64,000 bases of DNA from Streptomyces griseochromogenes (GTDB lineage: Bacteria; Actinomycetota; Actinomycetes; Streptomycetales; Streptomycetaceae), in contig NZ_CP016279.1 in NCBI RefSeq assembly GCF_001542625.1, positions 1,116,001-1,180,000 on the forward strand, given 5' to 3'. Both the position numbers and the translations under genes were made by a program. Below are positions 17 through 64,000 of this stretch, one piece after another. The first letter of the stretch is position 1. Every line of letters starts with the position of its first letter. The notes below the pieces were generated by a model. It ran no database searches. It was given only the letters and a program-made list of their open reading frames with translations, and was not told where the DNA came from.

Positions 17-976
17 TCAGTCCACCGTCACGTAGTCGGGGCCGGAGTAGCGGCCGGTGGCCAGCTTCTGGCGCTGCATCAGCAGGTCGTTCAGGAGCGA
101 GGAGGCGCCGAAGCGGAACCAGTGGTTGTCCAGCCAGTCCGCGCCCGCGGTCTCGTTGACCAGGACCAGGAACTTGATCGCGTCCTTGCTGGTACGGATG
201 CCGCCCGCGGGCTTCACGCCGATCTGGACGCCGGTCTGGGCGCGGAAGTCGCGCACCGCCTCCAGCATGAGGAGGGTGTTGGCGGGGGTCGCGTTGACGG
301 CGACCTTGCCGGTCGACGTCTTGATGAAGTCCGCGCCCGCCAGCATGCCCAGCCAGCTCGCCCGGCGGATGTTGTCGTACGTCGACAGCTCGCCGGTCTC
401 GAAGATGACCTTCAGCCGGGCGCTCGTCCCGCAGGCCTCCTTCACGGCGACGATCTCGTCGTACACCTTCAGGTACTTGCCCGAGAGGAACGCGCCCCGG
501 TCGATGACCATGTCGATCTCGTCGGCGCCCGCGGCGACGGCGTCACGGACGTCGGCCAGCTTGACGTCGAGGGCGGCGCGGCCGGCCGGGAAGGCGGTGG
601 CGACCGAGGCGACCTTCACGCCGGAGCCGGCGACGGCCTCCTTGGCGACGGCCACCATGTCGGGGTAGACGCAGACGGCCGCCGTGGTGGGGGTCGTCCG
701 GTCCGTCGGGTCCGGGTGGACCGCCTTGGCGCCGAGCGCCCGGACCTTGCCCGGGGTGTCCGCGCCTTCCAGCGTCGTCAGGTCGACCATCGAGATGGCG
801 AGGTCGATGGCGTACGCCTTCGCGGTGGTCTTGATGGAACGGGTGCCGAGAGACGCGGCGCGCGCCTCCAGGCCGACCGCGTCGACGCCGGGCAGCCCGT
901 GGAGGAAGCGGCGCAGCGTGCTGTCGGACGCGGTGACGTCAGCGAGAGCATGTGCTGTGGGTGCAGTGGTGGGCAT
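17..976 (-). CDS. deoC: Deoxyribose-phosphate aldolase DeoC
   Basis: Cytosolic class I aldolase that splits 2-deoxyribose 5-phosphate into acetaldehyde and glyceraldehyde 3-phosphate, the last step of deoxynucleoside salvage. From the ATG at 976 the protein is 319 residues. The Schiff-base lysine lies in the FIKTSTGK stretch (about residue 219), and the second active-site lysine is in GVKPAGGIR (about 255); their spacing matches the family. The longer open frame upstream to 1276 lacks family similarity and overlaps the divergent PH-domain gene, so the ATG at 976 is chosen. It lies 19 bases from a 12-bp palindrome that also precedes punA, which suggests shared control with the purine nucleoside phosphorylase gene. 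Confidence 0.96.
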   Translation of the reverse strand: MPTTAPTAHALADVTASDSTLRRFLHGLPGVDAVGLEARAASLGTRSIKTTAKAYAIDLAISMVDLTTLEGADTPGKVRALGAKAVHPDPTDRTTPTTAAVCVYPDMVAVAKEAVAGSGVKVASVATAFPAGRAALDVKLADVRDAVAAGADEIDMVIDRGAFLSGKYLKVYDEIVAVKEACGTSARLKVIFETGELSTYDNIRRASWLGMLAGADFIKTSTGKVAVNATPANTLLMLEAVRDFRAQTGVQIGVKPAGGIRTSKDAIKFLVLVNETAGADWLDNHWFRFGASSLLNDLLMQRQKLATGRYSGPDYVTVD

Positions 977-5577: not shown

Positions 5578-5664
5578 ATGACAGAGCCCACGGGATTGCG
5601 ATCGTTGTCTTGTCGTTTTCCACGAAGGCGGGGCAAATCCGCAGGAAGGCCCCGGTCGGCCGCC

Positions 5665-6102
5665 TCAGCAGGGGCGCTTGCGGAGTTCCATCACATAGTC
5701 GTGCGGCGCCCCCGCCGACTCGGCGGCGTCGGCGATCTCCCCGAGGTACCGGGCCGAGGGCAGCCCGCCCTCGTAGCCGTTCAGGACGTAGGCCCAGGCG
5801 GACTCCTCGCCGTCCAGGGTGTGCGCGCGCACCCGGACGCGCCGGTAGATGCCGAGGCTCACGCCCTCCCACCGGTCCAGGGACTCCTCGTCCATGGGCG
5901 CTATGTCGTACAGGCCGACGAAGACCTGGGCCCCGGGCTGCTCGACGATCGTCGCCAGCGCGCCTTCCCAGCCCAGCTGCTCGCCGCCGAAGGTCAGCCG
6001 CCAGCCGTTCAGCCAGCCGGTGGCGCGCAGGGGGGAGTGCGGGGCGCGGCCGGACATCAGCCCCGCATCCAGGTTGCAGCCGTACGCGGCATAGAGCGAC
6101 AT
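5665..6102 (-). CDS. Gamma-glutamylcyclotransferase-like protein
   Basis: A 145-residue single-domain protein of the GGCT/AIG2 fold. The N-terminal substrate loop reads YAAYGCNLD (the family usually has YGSN), and an acidic residue in the [11 protein letters not shown] stretch is in the expected place for the catalytic glutamate. Members release 5-oxoproline from gamma-glutamyl amino acids or act on related amides; the true substrate cannot be told from sequence. It is divergent from the flavoprotein gene at 6208. Confidence 0.8.
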
Positions 6103-6207
6103 GCACCGAGGGTACGGCAGGGGAAACCGCCGTTCCGATCATCTCTTCCGTCCCGGGAGTCCCGCTCGTGCGGCCCCGGGCAGTAGCACCTTGAAGCGTG
6201 CGGGACA

Positions 6208-7656
6208 ATGGAGTACGTGACTCGGATCGTGATCATCGGTGGCGGACCCGGCGGATACGAAGCGGCGCTGGTGGCCGCCCAGCTCGGCGCGGAGGTGACC
6301 GTCGTCGACTGCGACGGTCTGGGCGGAGCGTCGGTACTGACCGACTGCGTGCCGTCGAAGACCCTTATCGCTACGGCCGAGGTGATGACCACCTTCGACT
6401 CCTCCTACGAGGAGCTGGGCATCATCGTGGCCGACGACACCCCGCCGCTGGAGCAGGCGGCCCGGGTGGTGGGCGTGGACCTCGGGAAGGTCAACCGGCG
6501 TGTGAAGCGCCTCGCGCTCGCCCAGTCGCACGACATCACCGCCTCCGTCACCCGCGCCGGCGCCCGGGTCCTGCGCGGCCGCGGCCGGCTCGACGGCATG
6601 CAGGGCCTCGACGGCTCCCGCAAGGTCGTCGTCACCGCCGCCGACGGCACCGAGGAGATCCTCACCGCCGACGCCGTCCTCATCGCCACCGGCGGCCACC
6701 CGCGCGAGCTGCCCGACGCCCAGCCCGACGGCGAGCGCATCCTGAACTGGACCCAGGTCTACGACCTCACCGAGCTGCCGGAAGAGCTGATCGTGGTCGG
6801 CTCGGGTGTGACCGGTGCCGAGTTCGCCGGTGCCTATCAGGCCCTGGGGTCCAAGGTCACGCTCGTGTCGTCGCGGGATCGCGTGCTGCCGGGCGAGGAC
6901 CCCGACGCCGCCGCCGTCCTGGAGGACGTCTTCCGGCGCCGCGGCATGAACGTCATGGCCCGCTCCCGCGCGCAGTCCGCCAAGCGGGTCGGCGACCGGG
7001 TGGAGGTGACGCTGGCCGACGGGCGCGTCATCACCGGCTCGCACTGCCTCATGGCTGTCGGCGCCATCCCGAACAGCGCGGGGCTCGGCCTGGAGGAGGC
7101 CGGCGTCAAGCTGCGCGAGTCGGGTCACATCTGGACCGACAAGGTGTCGAGGACGACGGCTCCGGGCGTGTACGCGGCCGGTGACGTGACCGGTGTCTTC
7201 GCCCTCGCGTCCGTCGCCGCCATGCAGGGACGTATCGCCATGTACCACTTCCTCGGCGACGCGGTGGCCCCGCTGAACCTCAAGACGGTGTCGTCCAACG
7301 TCTTCACCGACCCCGAGATCGCCACCGTCGGCTACACCCAGGCCGATGTCGACGGGGGCAAGATCGACGCGCGCGTCGTCAAGCTCCCCCTGCTGCGCAA
7401 TCCGCGCGCCAAGATGCAGGGCATCCGGGACGGCTTCGTGAAGATCTTCTGCCGTCCGGGCACCGGGATCGTCGTCGGCGGTGTGGTCGTCTCGCCGCGC
7501 GCCTCGGAACTGATCCACCCCATCTCGATCGCCGTCGACAACAATCTGACGGTCGAACAGATCGCGAACGCATTCACGGTGTACCCCTCCCTTTCGGGGT
7601 CGATCGCGGAGGTGGCGCGCCAGCTCCACACCCGCAAGGCGGGCGGCGAGGTCTGA
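6208..7656 (+). CDS. NAD(P)H-quinone dehydrogenase LpdA-type flavoprotein disulfide reductase family
   Basis: A 482-residue FAD protein with an N-terminal Rossmann motif GGGPGG (residues 11-16), a second nucleotide-binding GSGVTGAEFAG, an FAD motif around GVYAAGDVTG, and a C-terminal dimerisation domain. The CxxxxC redox pair of lipoamide dehydrogenases is incomplete: Cys47 is present (DCVPSK) but the partner position, residue 42, is serine. This matches the mycobacterial LpdA group, which reduces quinones rather than lipoamide. The ATG at 6208 is used; an in-frame GTG at 6217 would give a protein beginning at TRIVIIGG and is equally possible. Confidence 0.9.
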   Translation: MEYVTRIVIIGGGPGGYEAALVAAQLGAEVTVVDCDGLGGASVLTDCVPSKTLIATAEVMTTFDSSYEELGIIVADDTPPLEQAARVVGVDLGKVNRRVKRLALAQSHDITASVTRAGARVLRGRGRLDGMQGLDGSRKVVVTAADGTEEILTADAVLIATGGHPRELPDAQPDGERILNWTQVYDLTELPEELIVVGSGVTGAEFAGAYQALGSKVTLVSSRDRVLPGEDPDAAAVLEDVFRRRGMNVMARSRAQSAKRVGDRVEVTLADGRVITGSHCLMAVGAIPNSAGLGLEEAGVKLRESGHIWTDKVSRTTAPGVYAAGDVTGVFALASVAAMQGRIAMYHFLGDAVAPLNLKTVSSNVFTDPEIATVGYTQADVDGGKIDARVVKLPLLRNPRAKMQGIRDGFVKIFCRPGTGIVVGGVVVSPRASELIHPISIAVDNNLTVEQIANAFTVYPSLSGSIAEVARQLHTRKAGGEV

Positions 7657-54874: not shown

Positions 54875-55465
54875 ATGACCGACGGCATGCCCGAGATGAC
54901 CAGCCTTGAGCGCACCGCCCTCTACAAGTCCCTCGGTAATCCCCTGCGCCGCCGGATCCTCGACTACCTCGGCCGGCACGGCGAGGCCAACTCCACCGTC
55001 CTCGCCCGTGAACTCGGCGAAAGCTCCGGCACCACCAGCTACCACCTGCGCAAACTCGCCGAGCAGCGGCTCATCGAGGAGATTCCGGAGAAGTCCGGCG
55101 GGCGGGAGAGGTGGTGGCGGTCCCTGCCCTTCAGCCACACCACGCCCGACCCGGCCACGATGTCCCCGCAGGAGTACGCGGCCGCGGAGCAGCTCGCCCA
55201 CCTCAAGATCGAGGTCGACACCGCCCTCTACCGCCGCGCCCACCGGGAGTACCGCGGCCCCGAGGGCTGGGCCCAGGTCCAGCGCCATGGCGCGTGGATG
55301 ACCCGGGAGGAACTGCTCTCCTTCATGCGCGACTATCACGCCCTGCTCGAACGCCACGGCCACCCGCGCGAAGAGGCCCCGGAGGGGGCGCGCCCGGTGG
55401 CGATGCGTTTCTACGCCGTTCCGGAGCCCGTGGGAGAGTGGAACGGTGAACCGACTGGCCCATGA
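54875..55465 (+). CDS. ArsR-like winged-helix transcriptional regulator
   Basis: A 196-residue regulator with an N-terminal ArsR-type winged helix ([18 protein letters not shown], then [20 protein letters not shown]) and a C-terminal helical domain of about 110 residues. No cysteine metal-site is visible, so it is not a metal sensor of the classic kind. Its 3' end overlaps the next gene by 20 bp. It probably controls the divergent membrane-protein gene through the palindrome between them. Confidence 0.88.
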
Positions 55466-57476
55466 GACGTCCCCGTATCTGCTCCAGCACGCCGACAACC
55501 CCGTCGACTGGTGGCCCTGGTCGGCCGAGGCCTTCGACGAGGCCCGCACGACCGACAAACCCGTGCTGCTGAGCGTCGGGTATTCGAGTTGCCACTGGTG
55601 TCACGTCATGGCTCACGAGTCCTTCGAGGACCAGGTCACCGCCGACTACCTCAACGAGCACTTCGTCAGCGTCAAGGTCGACCGCGAGGAACGCCCGGAC
55701 GTCGACGCCGTCTACATGGAGGCCGTCCAGGCGGCCACCGGCCAGGGCGGCTGGCCCATGACCGTCTTCCTCACCCCGGACGGCGAACCCTTCTACTTCG
55801 GCACCTACTTCCCGCCCGCGCCCCGGCACGGCATGCCCTCCTTCCGGCAGGTGCTGGAGGGCGTCAGGCAGGCCTGGACCGAGCGGCGGGACGAGGTCGC
55901 CGAGGTCGCCGGGAAGATCGTGCGCGACCTCGCCCAGCGGGAGATCAGCCACCAGGGTGCCGAGCCGCCCGGCGAGCCGGAACTCGCCCAGGCCCTTCTC
56001 GGGCTCACCCGGGAGTACGACCCGCAGCGCGGCGGATTCGGCGGCGCGCCGAAGTTCCCGCCGTCCATGGTGCTGGAGTTCCTGCTGCGGCATCACGCGC
56101 GCACCGGCGCCGAGGGCGCGCTGCAGATGGCCCAGGACACCTGCGAGCGCATGGCCCGGGGCGGGATCTACGACCAGCTCGGCGGGGGCTTCGCCCGCTA
56201 CTCCGTCGACCGTGACTGGGTCGTGCCCCACTTCGAGAAGATGCTGTACGACAACGCCCTGCTGTGCCGGGTGTACGCGCATCTGTGGCGGGCGACCCGT
56301 TCGGACCTCGCCCGCCGGGTCGCCCTGGAGACCGCCGACTTCCTGGTGCGCGAACTGCGCACCCAGGAGGGCGGGTTCGCCTCGGCGCTCGACGCCGACA
56401 GCGACGACGGGAGCGGCCGGCACGTCGAGGGCGCGTACTACGTGTGGACACCCGAGCAGCTCCGTGAGGCACTGCGCGACGATGCCGAACTCGCCGCCCA
56501 GCACTTCGGGGTGACCGAGGAAGGCACCTTCGAGCACGGGCAGTCCGTCCTCCAACTCCCGCTGAACGAGGGTGTGTTCGATGCGGAGAAGGTCGCATCC
56601 GTCAAGGAACGGCTGCTGGCGGAGCGGGCCCGGCGCCCCGCCCCCGGACGCGACGACAAGGTCGTCGCCGCCTGGAACGGGCTCGCGATCGCCGCACTCG
56701 CCGAGACCGGCGCCTACTTCGGCCGGCCCGACCTCGTCGAAGCCGCACTCGGCGCCGCCGACCTCCTCGTACGCGTGCATCTCGACGAGCACGCCCGGCT
56801 CGCCCGCACCAGCAAGGACGGCCGGGTGGGGCCCAACGCGGGTGTGCTGGAGGACTACGCCGACGTCGCCGAGGGCTTCCTGGCGCTCGCGTCCGTGACG
56901 GGGGAGGGGGTGTGGCTCGACTTCGCCGGTCTGCTCCTCGACCATGTGCTCGCCCGCTTCACCGACCCCGCGAGCGGCGCCCTGTACGACACCGCCTCCG
57001 ACGCCGAGCAGCTCATCCGCCGGCCCCAGGACCCCACCGACAACGCCACCCCGTCCGGCTGGAGCGCGGCGGCCGGCGCCCTGCTGGGTTACGCCGCCCA
57101 CACCGGCTCGGAACCCCACCGGACCGCGGCGGAAAGGGCGTTGGGGGTCGTCAAGACGCTCGGGCCGCGCGTGCCCCGGTTCATCGGCTGGGGGCTGGCC
57201 GCCGCCGAGGCGCTGCTCGACGGGCCCCGGGAGGTCGCCGTGGTCGGGCCTTCGCCGACCGACGAGCGGACAACTTCCCTGCATCGCACGGCACTTCTGG
57301 GTACCGCGCCGGGCGCGGTCGTCGCCGCCGGGACTCCGGACAGTGACGAGTTCCCGCTGCTCGCCGACCGTCCGCTCGTCGGAGGCGAACCGGCGGCGTA
57401 CGTCTGCCGCAACTTCACCTGTGATGCCCCGACGACGGATCCGGAGCGGCTGGCCGCGGCGCTGAACACCCGCTGA
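55446..57476 (+). CDS. DUF255 thioredoxin-fold / YyaL-like protein
   Basis: A 676-residue protein. The N-terminal thioredoxin-like domain (about residues 1-165) has SCHWCHVM with a CxxC motif. The C-terminal (alpha/alpha)6 domain resembles GH76/N-acylglucosamine-epimerase folds ([34 protein letters not shown]). The family is called spermatogenesis-associated protein 20-like, and its activity is unknown. The GTG at 55446 lies inside the end of the ArsR-like gene, implying translational coupling. Confidence 0.9.
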
Positions 57477-57560: not shown

Positions 57561-57585
57561 TTCCGAAACACGCTATTTATCGGAA
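57561..57585. promoter_or_regulatory. Inverted repeat in the promoter region of the glycan operon
   Basis: ttccga (57561-57566) and tcggaa (57580-57585) face each other across 13 bases in a relatively AT-rich part of the 213-bp gap before the GT2 gene. A possible -10-like tactgt lies about 30 bp further on. No terminator for the upstream gene was recognised. Confidence 0.35.
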
Positions 57586-57689
57586 CAGCTCTTGCGCTTC
57601 ACAGTTCCCTCCTACTGTCTCCACTGCGCGCGACGGGTGTGACGCACCGTCGTGTGCACCGGGGGTAATGGGGATCTGGGGGGATCTTT

Positions 57690-58958
57690 GTGCTGACGTC
57701 TGTCTTCGTCGCTGCCGTTTCACTCGCGCTGTTCTGGATGGCGGCCTTCACTCTGTGGTGGCAGATGCACGCGTGGCGCACGCCCGAGGTGCTCGCCTCC
57801 ACCCGGTTCGGCAGACCGGACGGCGGCGAGCATCTGTCGTTCTCCCTGCTTCTGCCGGCCCGGCACGAGCAGGCCGTGCTCGACCACACCATCCAGCGGC
57901 TGCTGGAGTCCACCCACACCGACTTCGAGATCATCGTGATCGTCGGGCACGACGACCCCGGGACCACGGCGGTCGCCGAGCAGGCCGCCGCCCGTGACCC
58001 GCGGGTGCGGGTGGTCGTCGACGCCCACGAGAAGAAGAACAAGCCCAAGGCCATGAACACGGCGCTGCCGCACTGCCGCGGTGACGTCGTCGGGGTCTTC
58101 GACGCCGAGGACCAGGTCCATCCGGAACTGCTCGCCCACGTCGACCACGCCTTCAGGACGACCGGAGCGCACGTCGTCCAGGGCGGTGTCCAGCTCATCA
58201 ACTTCCACTCCAGCTGGTACAGCCTGCGCAACTGCCTGGAGTACTTCTTCTGGTTCCGCTCCCGGCTGCACCTGCACGCGCAGGAGGGGTTCATCCCGCT
58301 CGGCGGCAACACCGTGTTCGTACGGACCGACGTCCTCAGGGAAGCGGACGGCTGGGACCCCGACTGCCTGGCCGAGGACTGCGACCTGGGCGTACGTCTG
58401 TCCAGCGTCGGCAAGAAGGTCGTCGTCGCCTACGACTCCGACATGGTCACCCGCGAGGAGACCCCCGGCTCGCTGATGTCGCTGCTCAAGCAGCGCACCC
58501 GCTGGAACCAGGGCTTCCTGCAGGTGTACCGGAAGAAGGACTGGAAGCAACTGCCCGCGCTCAGGCAGCGGTTGCTCGCCCGGTACACCCTGATGACCCC
58601 GTTCCTGCAGGCCTTCTCCGGCGTGATCATCCCGCTGAACGCGGCCGTCGCGCTCCTCCTCGACGTGCCCGTCGGCATCGCCTTCCTCACCTTCCTGCCG
58701 CTCGTCACCGCCGCCGTCACCTTCGTCTTCGAGGTGGTCGGACTGCACGACTTCGGCAAGCAGTACGGCCTCAGGGTCCGCCTCGTCCACTACGTGAAGC
58801 TCGTCGTGGGCGGCCCCTTCTACCAGGTCCTCCTCGCCGGAGCCGCGATCCGCGCAGTGTGGCGCGAGCAACGCGGCCGGAACGAATGGGAGTTGACCAC
58901 TCACGTCGGCGCGCACCTCACCGCGGCCGAGCCCATCCGAGAGGACATTGCCGCGTGA
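57690..58958 (+). CDS. Processive family 2 glycosyltransferase (cellulose synthase-like)
   Basis: A 422-residue membrane glycosyltransferase. One helix at the N-terminus, a GT-A catalytic domain with FDAEDQ (nucleotide-sugar/metal aspartates), AEDCDLG (catalytic base aspartate) and QRTRWNQGF (the QxxRW motif of processive synthases), and several C-terminal helices. It resembles short CslA-like enzymes that polymerise and extrude beta-glucans. The GTG at 57690 follows a ggggga ribosome site. The next gene starts within its stop codon. Confidence 0.9.
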   Translation: MLTSVFVAAVSLALFWMAAFTLWWQMHAWRTPEVLASTRFGRPDGGEHLSFSLLLPARHEQAVLDHTIQRLLESTHTDFEIIVIVGHDDPGTTAVAEQAAARDPRVRVVVDAHEKKNKPKAMNTALPHCRGDVVGVFDAEDQVHPELLAHVDHAFRTTGAHVVQGGVQLINFHSSWYSLRNCLEYFFWFRSRLHLHAQEGFIPLGGNTVFVRTDVLREADGWDPDCLAEDCDLGVRLSSVGKKVVVAYDSDMVTREETPGSLMSLLKQRTRWNQGFLQVYRKKDWKQLPALRQRLLARYTLMTPFLQAFSGVIIPLNAAVALLLDVPVGIAFLTFLPLVTAAVTFVFEVVGLHDFGKQYGLRVRLVHYVKLVVGGPFYQVLLAGAAIRAVWREQRGRNEWELTTHVGAHLTAAEPIREDIAA

Positions 58959-60607
58959 CCTCCACTCTTCCCGCGGTGACCACCCAGAAGGTCCCCGCGC
59001 AGCCCCGGCCTGCGCCTGAGGCGCGTCCGGCCGGCCGGACAAGCCCGCCGGAGCGGCTCCGCTCCTCCCGCTCCGACCTGCTGCTGTGCGGCGCCCTGCT
59101 GGTGGCGATCCTCGTCGTCCAGGGCTGGAACATCGCCGACTACCCGACCCTCAGCGACGACGAGGGCACCTATCTCGCCCAGGCCTGGGCCGTCCAGCAG
59201 GGCAGGGGCCTGGCCCACTACACCTACTGGTACGACCACCCGCCGCTCGGCTGGATCCAGATCGCCCTGCTCAGCTGGATACCCTCGGCGCTCAGCCCCG
59301 GCTCGATGACCGTCGGCTCCATGCGGGTCATCATGCTCGTCGTCACCGCCGTCAGCGCGGTCCTGGTCTACGCCCTCGGGCGGCGGCTGTCCCTGCCCCG
59401 CTGGGCCGCCGGGCTCGGCATGGCCCTGTTCGGACTCTCCCCGCTCGCGGTCGTGCTCAGCCGGGAGATCTTCCTCGACAACATCGCCGTGATGTGGCTG
59501 CTGCTGGCGTTCTGCCTGGCCGCCTCGCCCAGCCGCCATCTGTGGCACCACTTCGGCGCGGGCCTCGCGGCCGCCGCGGGCGTGCTCACCAAGGAGACGA
59601 TGCTCGTCGTCCTGCCCGCCCTGTTCGTCACCATGTGGCGCCACAGCCACCGCGACACCCGCAAGTTCGCGCTCACCGGTGCCGTCACCGCCTGCGCCCT
59701 GATCGGCTTCTCCTACCCGCTCTTCGCCCTGCTCAAGGGCGAGCTGCTCCCGGGCGCCGGGCACGTCTCGCTGTGGGACGGGATCAAGTACCAGATGTCC
59801 AGGCCGGGTTCGGGCTTCATCCTGGACCGGGCATCCGGCTCGTACGGAGTGCTGCGCTCCTGGCTGTACTGTGACCGTGTCCTGCCCCTCGGCGGCCTCG
59901 CCGGAGCCCTGCTGCTGATCGTCACCTGGCGCTGGTCCGTCACCGCCCGAGCGCTCGCCGGACCGGCCCTGGCCGTGGCGGTCCTGGCCGCCGTGGCCAT
60001 GCGCCCGGGCGGCTATCTGCCCGCCATGTACATCATCGGCGCCCTGCCCTTCCTCGCCCTGGTCCTGGCCGGCGGCGCCGCCTCCGTGACCCACGCGGTG
60101 CTGCGCCGGTGGCGCGAGGAGGACGAGAAGAGGTTCCTCACCGGCGGCCGGTACACGCTCGCCGCCGCCCTCGCCCTCGCCGCCGGCGCCTATGTCGTCC
60201 CGCACTGGTACGACGGCGACCGCACCGCCCTGACCGCCGACGCCAACAAGCCCTACCGGCAGGCCTCCACCTGGCTGAGCACGCGGGTCGAGAACCCGCG
60301 GCGCACCCGGGTCCTCGTCGACGACGCCCTCTGGCTGGACCTCGTGCACGCCGGATACCGGCCCGGGCCCGGCGTCATCTGGTTCTACAAGGCCGACCTC
60401 GACCCGGCCGTCACCAAGACCATGCCGCACGGCTGGCGGGACCTCGACTACGTCGTCGCCTCGCCGACCGTCCGCCGTGACGCCAAGGACCTGCCGAACG
60501 TCCGGGCCGCCATCCGGCACTCCGATCCGGTCGCCACCTTCGGCACCGGGGACGACCGCATCGAGATCCGGCAGATCCGGACGGCAGCCGCGGGAGGCGC
60601 GCGATGA
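58955..60607 (+). CDS. GT39/ArnT-like integral membrane glycosyltransferase
   Basis: A 550-residue protein with about ten to twelve predicted membrane helices. The first outer loop has the acidic pair typical of PMT/ArnT enzymes (TLSDDEGTYLAQAW), followed by HPPLGW. Such enzymes move a sugar from a polyprenyl-phosphate donor to a protein, lipid or glycan outside the membrane. The GTG at 58955 overlaps the previous stop codon (GTGA). A polar C-terminal domain of about 130 residues lies outside. Confidence 0.88.
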   Translation: MTSTLPAVTTQKVPAQPRPAPEARPAGRTSPPERLRSSRSDLLLCGALLVAILVVQGWNIADYPTLSDDEGTYLAQAWAVQQGRGLAHYTYWYDHPPLGWIQIALLSWIPSALSPGSMTVGSMRVIMLVVTAVSAVLVYALGRRLSLPRWAAGLGMALFGLSPLAVVLSREIFLDNIAVMWLLLAFCLAASPSRHLWHHFGAGLAAAAGVLTKETMLVVLPALFVTMWRHSHRDTRKFALTGAVTACALIGFSYPLFALLKGELLPGAGHVSLWDGIKYQMSRPGSGFILDRASGSYGVLRSWLYCDRVLPLGGLAGALLLIVTWRWSVTARALAGPALAVAVLAAVAMRPGGYLPAMYIIGALPFLALVLAGGAASVTHAVLRRWREEDEKRFLTGGRYTLAAALALAAGAYVVPHWYDGDRTALTADANKPYRQASTWLSTRVENPRRTRVLVDDALWLDLVHAGYRPGPGVIWFYKADLDPAVTKTMPHGWRDLDYVVASPTVRRDAKDLPNVRAAIRHSDPVATFGTGDDRIEIRQIRTAAAGGAR

Positions 60608-61785
60608 GCGGCCACGAGTACACCGCGCCCGTCCCGGGCCTGGAAGCGGTCGAGGTACCCGAGCCGGGCGCCGTCACCATCGTCGTCCCCACCTTCAACG
60701 AGTCCGCGAACATCCGGCGGCTGCTGCGCCAGATCACCGAGGCGGTGCCCGCCCGGCTGCCCTGCGAGGTCGTCTTCGTGGACGACTCCACCGACGACAC
60801 CCCCGAGGTGATCCGCGACGCCGCCCAGGACTGCCCGTTCCCGGTGGCCGTGCTGCACCGGGAGGAACCGGTCGGCGGGCTCGGCGGCGCCGTGGTCGAG
60901 GGGCTGAAGGCGGCGACCTCGGAGTGGATCGTCGTCATGGACGGCGACTGCCAGCATCCGCCGTCCCTGGTACCGGAGTTGGTGGCCACCGGCGAGCGGG
61001 CGAACGCCGCTCTCGTCGTCGCCTCGCGGTACATCGAGGGCGGCAGCCGGGCCGGGCTCGCCGGCAGCTACCGGGTGGCCGTCTCGCGCGGCGCGACCTG
61101 GCTGACCAAGGCGCTCTTCCCGCGCCGGCTGCACGGCATCAGCGACCCGATGAGCGGCTTCTTCGCCATCCGGCGCAGCGCGGTCACCGCCGAGGCGCTC
61201 AAGCCGCTCGGCTACAAGATCCTCCTGGAACTGGCCGTACGCAGCCGCCCCCGGCAGGTCGCCGAGGTGCCGTTCGTCTTCCAGGACCGGTTCGCGGGGG
61301 AGTCCAAGTCGAGCGCGCAGGAGGGCCTGCGCTTCCTGCGCCACCTGGCCGGGCTGCGCACCGCCTCACCCGTCGCCCGCATGGTCGGCTTCGGGCTGAT
61401 CGGCGCGAGCGGCTTCGTGCCCAACCTGGCCGGACTGTGGGCACTGACCGCGCTCGGCCTGCACTACGTACCCGCCGAGATCCTCGCCAACCAGTTCGGT
61501 GTCGCCTGGAACTTCCTGCTCATCGAGCACCTGCTGTTCCGTGACCGGCGGGCGCACCGCCGCTGGTGGGACCGTCTGGGCCGGTTCGCGCTGCTCGCCA
61601 ACGCGGACCTGGTGCTGCGCATCCCGCTGATCGCGCTGCTCGTCGGCCGGTTCGGCATGGGCGCGCTGCCCGCCACCGCGCTCGCGCTGGTGCTGACGTT
61701 CGTCCTGCGCTTCGTGGGGACCGAAGCGCTGGTCTATCTCCCGCGCCGGCGGGGGAACCGTACGACCGCAAGGAGAGCCGTGTGA
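60604..61785 (+). CDS. Polyprenol-phosphate glycosyltransferase fused to GtrA-like membrane domain
   Basis: A 393-residue protein. The N-terminal dolichol-phosphate-mannose-synthase-like GT2 domain (VVPTFNESANI, VVFVDDSTDDT, VVMDGDCQHPP) should load a sugar onto polyprenyl phosphate. The C-terminal 130 residues are a four-helix GtrA-like domain (FGLIGASGFVPNLAGL, NQFGVAWNFLLIEHL). It probably makes and flips the donor used by the GT39-like protein. The ATG at 60604 overlaps the previous stop (ATGA). Confidence 0.91.
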   Translation: MSGHEYTAPVPGLEAVEVPEPGAVTIVVPTFNESANIRRLLRQITEAVPARLPCEVVFVDDSTDDTPEVIRDAAQDCPFPVAVLHREEPVGGLGGAVVEGLKAATSEWIVVMDGDCQHPPSLVPELVATGERANAALVVASRYIEGGSRAGLAGSYRVAVSRGATWLTKALFPRRLHGISDPMSGFFAIRRSAVTAEALKPLGYKILLELAVRSRPRQVAEVPFVFQDRFAGESKSSAQEGLRFLRHLAGLRTASPVARMVGFGLIGASGFVPNLAGLWALTALGLHYVPAEILANQFGVAWNFLLIEHLLFRDRRAHRRWWDRLGRFALLANADLVLRIPLIALLVGRFGMGALPATALALVLTFVLRFVGTEALVYLPRRRGNRTTARRAV

Positions 61786-64000
61786 ACGAGCACCGCAGAC
61801 GGACCGCGCTGGTCGGGGTGGGGGCCCTGACCGCCGGTCTGCTCCTGACCGCGCCGCAGCCGGCCGAGGCCGCGAACCTGGTGAAGAACCCGGGTTTCGA
61901 GAGCGCCGGCCCGGACGACATGCCGTACTGCTGGGAGAAGTCGGGCTGGGGCGACAACGACTTCGGATTCGAGACCACCTCCGACGCCCACTCCGGGGCC
62001 AAGGCGATGAAGGTCACGCTGACCCGCCGGGTCGACGGCGACCGCAAGGCCCTGATCACCGAGTCGACGGACTGCGCGCCGGTGGTGAGCGCGGGCAGGC
62101 AGTACGACCTCGGGCTCTGGTACAAGACCACGACCCCGGACGCCGGCATCACCCTCTTCCGGCACGACGCCACCGCCGGCTGGCAGTACTGGACCGACCT
62201 CAAGACCCTGGACATGGCGTCCGCCTGGACCCGGGCCACGGTCCGCACCCCCGAGGTCCCGGCCGGCACCGACCGGATCACCTGGGGCGTCTCCGTCTAC
62301 GGCACCGGCTCGGCGACCACCGACGACTACACCATGGAGCAGGTCCCGGACACCCTCCCGCCCGCCCAGTGCACGGGCACGAACGACCAGTGCGCCAACG
62401 GCAGCTGGTCGGTGCTGCCGACGCGGAACCCGGTCCGCTCCATGCACTCCGTCGTGCTCGACAACGGCAAGGTGCTGCTGATCGCGGGCTCCGGCAACAG
62501 CGAGGAGAACTTCGACGCGGGCACTTTCACGTCCGCCGTGTACGACCCGGCGAACGGCACCTACAAGGTCATCCCCACGCCCAAGGACATGTTCTGCGCG
62601 GGCCATGTGCAGCTCCAGGACGGGCGGGTGCTCGTCATGAGCGGCAACAAGGCGTACCCGGTCCCGGGCGGGCACGGCTACGAGGGGTTCAAGGACTCGT
62701 ACGTCTTCGACCCGAAGACCGAGACCTACAGCAAGACCAACGACCTCAACGACGGCCACTGGTACCCCTCGGCGACCGAGCTGGGCAACGGTGACGTCAT
62801 CTCCTTCGGCGGCCTGCGCGAGGACTCCACCGGCTCCGTCACCAACGAGCTGTGGTCGGACGAGGACCAGCGGTGGCTGCCGCTGTGGAAGGTCAACCAG
62901 ACCTGGTCGTACTGGGGGCTGTACCCGTCGATGGTCCTCATGCAGGACGGCCGGCTCTTCTACACGGGCAGCCATGTCTTCGGGAACAACATCCCCGGCA
63001 CGGGCTCCGCGATCTACGACTACAACGCCAACACGGTCACCCGGATCCCGGGGCTGCGGGACAAGGACGAACGGGACCAGTCGGCGAGCGTGCTGCTGCC
63101 TCCGGCGCAGGACCAGAAGGTCCTCACGATCGGCGGCGGCAACATCGACTCCAACCCGGACGCGGGTCGTCTGACCGACCTGATCGACCTCAAGCAGGCG
63201 AGCCCGTCCTACATCGCCGGGCCGCCCGTCCCGCAGGGCACGGTGGACCTCGGCAACGGAAAGGTCGCCGAGACCGGCGACCAGGGCAAGATGTACGTCT
63301 CCGCCGTACTGCTGCCCGACGGCAAGGTGCTGGAGACGGGCGGCGCCCTGCACAACCGCGCCGACCCGGTGTACGAGTCCTCGGTCTACGACCCGGACAC
63401 CAACACCTTCGACCCGGTCGCCGCCGACCCCGAGTCCCGCGGCTACCACTCCTCGGCGTTCCTGCTGCCCGACGGCCGCGTGATGGCCACCGGTGACAAC
63501 CCGGGCAACGGCACCTGGAACCACAACGTGTCGATCTACACCCCGCCCTATCTCTACAAGGGCACCCGGCCGACGATCACCTCGGTGATCAACCAGGAGT
63601 GGAAGTACGGCGACACCCAGCGGATCACCGTCGACCGGCCCGTCGCCGAGGCCGAGCTGATCCGCCCGGCCGCGGTCACCCACTCCTCCGACCCCAACCA
63701 GCGGTTCGTGGATCTGCCCCTGAGCGTGGACGGCGACAACGTCGACCTCAACGTGACGAACAACCCGAACATCGCCCCGCCCGGCTGGTACATGCTCTTC
63801 GCGGTGGACGCGGGCGGGGTTCCCTCGGTGGCCCGGTGGGTGCACCTGACCGGTCCGGCGGCCCTCGGCGCGTCCGCCGCCTCGCCGCACGTCCACTCCT
63901 TCGCCGACGGACTGAAGGGCGGGACGTGGGGGCCGGGCGAGAAGCGGTCCTCCCAGAAGGTCAGCACCACGATCTCCGGGTGCGACCGGCACTACGGGTC
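61782..64000 (+). CDS. Secreted galactose-oxidase-like copper radical oxidase (partial, runs off the end)
   Basis: 739 residues are visible with no stop. A signal peptide (about 1-31) is followed by a carbohydrate-binding-like domain (about 33-190, starting LVKNPGFES), a kelch beta-propeller and a DUF1929-type domain. The galactose oxidase active site can be matched residue by residue: Cys272 (KDMFCAGH) for the Tyr-Cys crosslink, Tyr328 (HWYPSATE), Tyr555-His556 (RGYHSSAF) and His634 (AVTHSSD). It should oxidise primary alcohols of sugars to aldehydes with H2O2 release. The GTG at 61782 overlaps the previous stop. A C-terminal extension of more than 40 residues continues past the window. Confidence 0.9.
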   Translation, partial: MNEHRRRTALVGVGALTAGLLLTAPQPAEAANLVKNPGFESAGPDDMPYCWEKSGWGDNDFGFETTSDAHSGAKAMKVTLTRRVDGDRKALITESTDCAPVVSAGRQYDLGLWYKTTTPDAGITLFRHDATAGWQYWTDLKTLDMASAWTRATVRTPEVPAGTDRITWGVSVYGTGSATTDDYTMEQVPDTLPPAQCTGTNDQCANGSWSVLPTRNPVRSMHSVVLDNGKVLLIAGSGNSEENFDAGTFTSAVYDPANGTYKVIPTPKDMFCAGHVQLQDGRVLVMSGNKAYPVPGGHGYEGFKDSYVFDPKTETYSKTNDLNDGHWYPSATELGNGDVISFGGLREDSTGSVTNELWSDEDQRWLPLWKVNQTWSYWGLYPSMVLMQDGRLFYTGSHVFGNNIPGTGSAIYDYNANTVTRIPGLRDKDERDQSASVLLPPAQDQKVLTIGGGNIDSNPDAGRLTDLIDLKQASPSYIAGPPVPQGTVDLGNGKVAETGDQGKMYVSAVLLPDGKVLETGGALHNRADPVYESSVYDPDTNTFDPVAADPESRGYHSSAFLLPDGRVMATGDNPGNGTWNHNVSIYTPPYLYKGTRPTITSVINQEWKYGDTQRITVDRPVAEAELIRPAAVTHSSDPNQRFVDLPLSVDGDNVDLNVTNNPNIAPPGWYMLFAVDAGGVPSVARWVHLTGPAALGASAASPHVHSFADGLKGGTWGPGEKRSSQKVSTTISGCDRHYG

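Follow-up and report, generated by a model that had tools for sequence, protein, structure and literature searches.

Four adjoining genes of Streptomyces griseochromogenes, here called csl, pmt, gtrA and cro, form a conserved operon distinct from the cslA-glxA locus of the same genome. They lie at the end of the 64,000-nucleotide stretch of DNA analysed here (the window; G000:C1:1116001-1180000 of a 10.76 Mb genome) and encode a membrane glycosyltransferase of family GT2, a GT39-type membrane transferase, a polyprenyl-phosphate-hexose synthase fused to a GtrA membrane domain and a copper radical oxidase that is predicted to be secreted. We propose, with about as much confidence as doubt, that the operon is a cell-surface glycan system separate from cslA-glxA, in which a glycan would be synthesized, decorated from a lipid-linked sugar and oxidized outside the cell. 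The enzyme families are known, as is the principle of joining a synthase to a copper radical oxidase; their combination in this operon is not described in the literature that we searched.

A four-gene operon distinct from cslA-glxA

The four genes follow one another on the forward strand, each overlapping the next by four bases (GTGA, ATGA and GTGA, read directly in the sequence), with the order and coordinates (Table 1) that a first-pass annotation of the window had given. The last gene, cro, passes the window edge by 178 bases, its stop falling at L004:10179. To describe the arrangement in relatives we used 80 fetched loci, the best 80 of 370 oxidase relatives and a sample that leans to close ones; all are labelled Streptomyces except one, labelled Actinobacteria bacterium. 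All four genes are present in 79 of the 80, the contig of the remaining locus being cut, so the arrangement is not due to chance and the genes behave as a conserved unit. The idea of a one-strain oddity is ruled out by these loci and by the 72 of 197 genomes of the order described below. The four-base overlaps recur as well, at csl-pmt in 75 of 78 loci, at pmt-gtrA in 67 of 78 and at gtrA-cro in 58 of the 76 for which values were printed, in counts that picked the start codon nearest the homologous start, a choice that favours such overlaps. Across the four genes dN/dS (the ratio of non-synonymous to synonymous substitution rates) is 0.15-0.33 against four relatives; all of them are under purifying selection.

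Could this simply be the CslA/GlxA locus, the possibility that the first-pass annotation had raised against its own proposal? The same genome holds cslA (677 amino acids), glxA (645 amino acids) and a converging endoglucanase-type gene at a different locus (L005 6473-11529). Neither a GT39 nor a GtrA gene adjoins that locus, as the annotation had stated of the pair, and neither cslA nor a cslZ-type endoglucanase gene adjoins the operon. On the GlxA model NF052501 (cut-off 800) cro scores 403 bits, against 1150.6 for the genome's own GlxA as positive control, and the two proteins are 35% identical over 408 amino acids. An insert of about 110 residues in GlxA is absent from cro, and the cofactor Cys and Tyr are 57-58 residues apart in all 19 rows of the cro clade and 167-175 apart in all 21 rows of the GlxA clade (two repeats included). 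In a FastTree phylogeny of 75 rows, 17 of them repeats that were kept (a sequence fetched twice, or the genome's own GlxA) and with supports read after re-rooting, the cro clade (support 1.0) is distinct from the GlxA clade (0.999); the node that unites the two, with support 0.92, takes in G099 as well. Five of the 75 rows (L126/L185, L127/L186 and L006) do not show the CWYYHH pattern. The separate cslA-glxA locus, the model score, the identity, the insert and the clade together rule out that the operon is the CslA/GlxA locus. Trp327 of cro was rejected as a GlxA-only mark: 72 of the wider set's 75 rows have Trp there.

The two systems nonetheless share a design. CslA-GlxA(-CslZ) (SCO2836-2837) also joins a membrane GT2 gene to an adjoining AA5-type oxidase gene in Streptomyces, with the same five catalytic residues as cro and the same Trp beside the cofactor Tyr. 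GlxA differs in its predicted membrane anchor as well as its insert, and is without the long N-terminal region and the C-terminal tail of cro.

Linkage, gain and loss

We followed the genes through 197 genomes of the order, with thresholds of E 1e-80 for csl, E 1e-50 for pmt, E 1e-60 for gtrA and 892 bits for cro, the last a cut of our own choosing; the next score listed below it is 257 bits, of the GlxA type. The 76 genomes with csl are also the 76 with pmt, and the two genes are at most 300 bases apart in 74 and at most 417 in the remaining two. A cro orthologue is present in 72 of the 197, every one a genome with csl and pmt, and always within 4058 bases of csl. gtrA is found in 70 of the 76 csl genomes; in all of these but G465 (69 of 70) it is no more than 3 kb from csl. 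Linkage survives rearrangement: csl is divergent from pmt-cro in G016 and G465, and G588 has the order cro...csl-pmt-gtrA.

This constancy bears on the idea that cro supplies H2O2 or oxidizes alcohols or aldehydes of the environment, its position in the operon reflecting surface co-regulation only. Copper radical oxidases as a class do release H2O2, according to parts of PMC4736821, and such enzymes may stand without a synthase, as does another oxidase of this genome (L006); by screen or by eye, no GT2 was detected in 15 of 18 stretches around other oxidases. cro, however, is always accompanied by csl and pmt (72 of 72 genomes) and stays linked to them through rearrangements, and we give this explanation little credence.

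Beyond the full set, the genes come in several partial combinations. G041, G049 and G051 have csl-pmt with neither a gtrA nor a cro orthologue, G548 has csl-pmt without a cro orthologue, and G600 carries, besides the full set, a second pmt...csl-gtrA that lacks cro. Because genomes without gtrA, cro or both keep csl-pmt, this pair is the core and gtrA and cro its accessories; the operon thus consists of a basic pair with two additions, and its four parts are not inseparable. In G527 a gtrA orthologue stands alone between the usual neighbours (L182 = G527:C32:60000-72000, 5661-6908), csl, pmt and cro being absent; it is possibly a relic of the operon.

In a second sample, the oxidase is present in 19 of 37 same-genus genomes (matches above 780 bits among G000-G036; the gene of G028 is partial, at a contig end), with a further genome, G047, from another family. 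Of 396 genomes sampled across the phylum, six have a cro orthologue; all six, which include the genome of the window, belong to the same genus. csl homologues (E 1e-50) are found in 14 genomes, of which eight lie outside the class. Outside the class a pmt match adjoins csl in G072, G336 (as two short pieces), G411, G137, G114 and G086, with no cro in the stretch; no genes were callable at the csl position of G203. csl-pmt pairs with no cro next to them thus extend to further classes of the phylum, which suggests that the pair is the older element and that the oxidase was added to it. In G365 (L222, 4184-8866) csl is followed by pmt and by separate genes for a GT2 and a GtrA domain, with no oxidase in the stretch; we read this arrangement as a split version of the Streptomyces set.

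The four enzymes and a candidate pathway

pmt scores above the cut-offs of PF02366 (40 bits; 22.7) and PF13231 (39.8; 26.1), with an acidic pair, D69-E70, after the first hydrophobic segment (D69 kept in 95 and E70 in 94 of 95 homologues) and YDHPP at 93-97. gtrA matches PF00535 (108.9 bits; cut-off 23.3) and PF04138 (61.1; 26.1) and has DGD at 113-115. Its residues 23-372 align with the dolichyl-phosphate mannose synthase 5mlz (E 2.6e-53), presumably from Pyrococcus furiosus, which likewise joins a GT2 to a GtrA/DPMS membrane domain; 5mlz is a mannose synthase, and gtrA is assigned at the level of a hexose. A GT-A polyprenyl-sugar synthase working with GtrA and a GT-C transferase to decorate wall polymers is an established system, described in sections of PMC13390465. 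The operon has the same trio of synthase, GtrA domain and GT-C-type transferase as these teichoic-acid and secondary-polymer systems of Gram-positives, and differs in that synthase and GtrA are fused in one protein and that a GT2 of its own and a copper radical oxidase are linked to them. The Actinoplanes gsf cluster was rejected as the same system: "galactose oxidase", "copper" and "GT39" are absent from the main text of its paper, the part to which this statement applies.

The same two proteins could instead form a branch for O-glycosylation of secreted proteins, the oxidase included, with the csl glycan unrelated or lipid-linked. PF02366 and PF13231 are in fact protein-mannosyltransferase families, gtrA matches a dolichyl-phosphate mannose synthase, and Pmt and Ppm1 carry out protein O-glycosylation in Streptomyces. 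Yet pmt follows csl and not cro, both through the 76 genomes, including the four without cro, and in the six pairs outside the class; we consider a protein-directed branch unlikely.

For csl, the description "cellulose-synthase-like" holds in a broad GT2 sense and in some database names: among the best 120 orthologues listed, these are "glycosyltransferase" or "cellulose synthase/poly-beta-1,6-N-acetylglucosamine synthase-like glycosyltransferase". It does not extend to a close kinship with cellulose synthases. csl is a distant relative of CslA (24% identity across 223 amino acids) and scores 34.6 bits on the CelA model TIGR03030 (cut-off 699.1), a cut-off that alone cannot separate it from CslA because the genome's own CslA scores only 92.3. 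The protein has PF13641/PF00535 domains, hydrophobic segments at its N- and C-terminal ends, and the motifs DAED (138-141), ED (229-230) and QRTRW (268-272). D138, D141, E229, D230, Q268, R271 and W272 are invariant in 98 of 98 homologues, the last three being those of the QxxRW motif of membrane-integrated GT2 synthases.

By its predicted copper centre, kelch propeller and galactose oxidase early-set domain (PF09118 and PF07250), cro is a member of the AA5-type copper radical oxidase superfamily. Its Cys272, Tyr328, Tyr555, His556 and His634, all at the positions first claimed, align with active-site residues of GlxA and fungal galactose oxidase, no residue falling outside the active site, and all 88 orthologues examined (the window's own, those of the 80 fetched loci and seven divergent ones) have them. 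Among the best 120 orthologues listed, database names are "galactose oxidase-like", "galactose oxidase early set" and "DUF1929 domain-containing protein". cro shares the propeller, early-set domain and Cys/Tyr/Tyr/His/His centre with fungal galactose oxidase (1gof) and the galactose oxidase of Pseudarthrobacter siccitolerans (9g43, 9g8h), the centre as aligned for the fungal enzyme; it differs from them in its N-terminal region and its place in a glycan operon, and has Trp-Tyr, like GlxA, where the fungal enzyme has Gly-Tyr.

The likeness to GlxA can also be read differently: cro might act mainly by activating csl, in the way that GlxA serves CslA as a partner subunit, and not by oxidizing the glycan. 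Portions of PMC11022532 report that CslA alone gave no UDP (uridine diphosphate) release and that a co-produced CslA-GlxA complex released UDP and made cellulose in vitro, and among solved structures GlxA is the nearest to cro. However, according to the same portions GlxA is believed to be anchored at CslA by a predicted membrane helix. cro is without the GlxA insert, and its N-terminal stretch ends in a conserved A-x-A-like site, so that its start likely reads as a cleaved signal peptide and predicts a secreted protein; csl, moreover, does without cro in four of 76 genomes and in other classes. A role mainly as activator is to us quite improbable. Since the insert and, seemingly, a membrane anchor are missing, oxidation of a product by cro is more likely than a purely structural role.

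We thus favour the surface-glycan system proposed above, and envision the following steps. csl would make a chain from a cytosolic nucleotide sugar and pass it across the membrane. gtrA would make a polyprenyl-phosphate-hexose, which its membrane domain would carry to the outer face, and pmt would move the hexose from the lipid onto the chain outside the cell. cro would be exported and fold around copper with a Tyr-Cys radical cofactor. On the finished glycan it would turn a primary alcohol, in the simplest case that at C6 of the hexose attached by pmt, into an aldehyde, releasing H2O2. Such aldehydes could then form cross-links within the glycan, or between it and proteins or surfaces. The substrates, the acceptor of pmt, the flipping, the oxidized position and the biological role are all inferred.

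Several observations weigh against this proposal. csl has DAED where processive synthases usually carry DxD, and the best PDB entry for it, 6yv7, matches weakly (E 2.7e-6); for both reasons it may not polymerize. For pmt no PDB sequence matched at E 1, and its structure model, with a mean predicted local distance difference test score (pLDDT) of 49.7, is too poor for use. The N-terminal carbohydrate-binding domain that the first-pass annotation had seen in cro is a weak point: residues ~31-190 match no Pfam family and no PDB sequence at E 10. Nor was a second copy of this region found in the genome at E 0.01. In the structure model it is beta-rich, and we describe it as a predicted beta-rich domain that matches no carbohydrate-binding module family; in the fold comparison of cro, at least a fifth of the rows covered residues 198-691 only, outside this domain. 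A gtrA-type gene occurs in six further genomes without csl, so gtrA is not specific to this system. At the threshold used, gtrA is missing from three of the 72 cro genomes (G480, G502 and G532), all of which hold csl and pmt, and the partial gtrA match of G465 sits on another contig; a linked donor gene is therefore not obligatory. With these gaps, and with csl-pmt existing without cro, the "complete logic" first seen in the four genes stands as the best reading of their composition and as an interpretation. The counts over 197 genomes come from related species and not from independent events; because these species share descent, the rearranged loci are the better evidence of linkage. Finally, GlxA, the nearest characterized relative, is without significant activity on galactose and the sugars used by fungal galactose oxidase, as parts of PMC4736821 have it, and for this reason sugar oxidation by cro cannot be assumed.

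Surroundings, other oxidases and a possible second system

Table 1. Features of the csl-pmt-gtrA-cro operon in window coordinates (residue numbers for the domains of cro).
Feature	Position	Strand	Description
Conserved upstream block	57565..57625	+	GAAACA..GCTATTTATC.GAA and CTTCACAG.TCCC.C.TA; conservation over 80 upstream regions
csl	57690-58958	+	422-aa membrane GT2
pmt	58955-60607	+	550-aa GT39/PMT-like integral membrane transferase
gtrA	60604-61785	+	393-aa polyprenyl-phosphate-hexose synthase fused to GtrA/DPMS membrane domain
cro	GTG start 61782; window edge 64000; true end 64178	+	Predicted secreted copper radical oxidase, 798 aa
cro Cys272 codon	62595..62597	+	Tyr-Cys cofactor; equals galactose oxidase Cys228 by alignment
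cro Trp327 and Tyr328	62760..62765	+	Trp aligned with GlxA Trp288; Tyr328 the cofactor Tyr, galactose oxidase Tyr272
cro Tyr555-His556	63444..63449	+	Aligned with GlxA and fungal galactose oxidase; presumably axial Tyr and copper ligand, Tyr495-His496 of the latter
cro His634	63681..63683	+	Aligned with GlxA and fungal galactose oxidase; presumably copper ligand, His581 of the latter
cro domain architecture	residues ~1-30; ~31-190; 596-688; ~730-798		Likely signal peptide; beta-rich N domain; galactose oxidase early-set domain, preceded by the kelch propeller; excalibur-like tail

The conserved block before csl is probably a promoter or operator. Two further ideas on control were discarded: an inverted repeat, GTTCCG-N-CGGAAC, as upstream operator is present in 8 of the 80 upstream regions, and regulation by bldA through TTA codons is ruled out by the count of zero such codons in the four genes. 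The 5' neighbour of csl (55446-57476, PF03190) encodes a DsbH/thioredoxin-domain protein; 3' of cro, outside the window, lie a convergent Mut7-C gene, an MFS gene, a haemolysin-III-like gene and phosphoenolpyruvate carboxykinase.

The solitary oxidase mentioned above, the third of this genome (L006:7320-10205; G000 C1 ~5605319-5608204; 961 amino acids), has Gly, not Trp, before the cofactor Tyr, like fungal galactose oxidase. The exceptions among the 18 stretches around other oxidases are G228 and G135, with a CslA-type GT2, and G112, with another GT2. In G135, from outside the class, oxidase, endoglucanase-like and CslA-like GT2 genes stand together (L191:6833-13681), resembling cslA-glxA-cslZ; in G112 (L196, 5572-9921) the oxidase and an unrelated-looking GT2 are ~1.4 kb apart, both on the minus strand. 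That bacteria in general place copper radical oxidase genes next to those of GT2 synthases is not supported, on a weak test: the gene caller needs a high third-position GC (guanine plus cytosine) content, and few genes were called in some low-GC stretches. On a Burkholderia ambifaria plasmid (L204:3843-7192) a distant copper radical oxidase gene has a four-base overlap with an SCO-family gene, whose product might be a copper-loading partner dedicated to the oxidase.

We found no description of the four-gene operon in the literature searched, that is, open-licence papers, subscription papers being outside its scope, and galactose oxidase and GtrA occur together in no paper of it. A 2013 survey by domain architecture, in the parts of PMC3543389 that bear on it, found a single such oxidase in all but three of 28 genomes. 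We tentatively suggest, at somewhat less than even confidence, an unrecognized second streptomycete system, in which an old GT2-GT39 pair of the Actinomycetota gained a GtrA-fusion donor synthase and a secreted oxidase, turning a lipid-delivered sugar into an aldehyde handle for cross-linking. The oxidase would then have been gained in Streptomyces, in one other genus of the family and in one of the order.

If this is true, polysaccharide synthases became coupled to copper radical oxidases on two occasions in Streptomyces, and the synthase differed between the two. GlxA is the studied Streptomyces copper radical oxidase, and cro, present in 72 of 197 genomes of the order and 19 of 37 of the genus, would offer a second place to ask what such enzymes oxidize. 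Unlike cslA-glxA, the operon also holds a candidate side-chain donor and a candidate transfer enzyme, so that the chain, the side sugar and the oxidation may be genetically separable.

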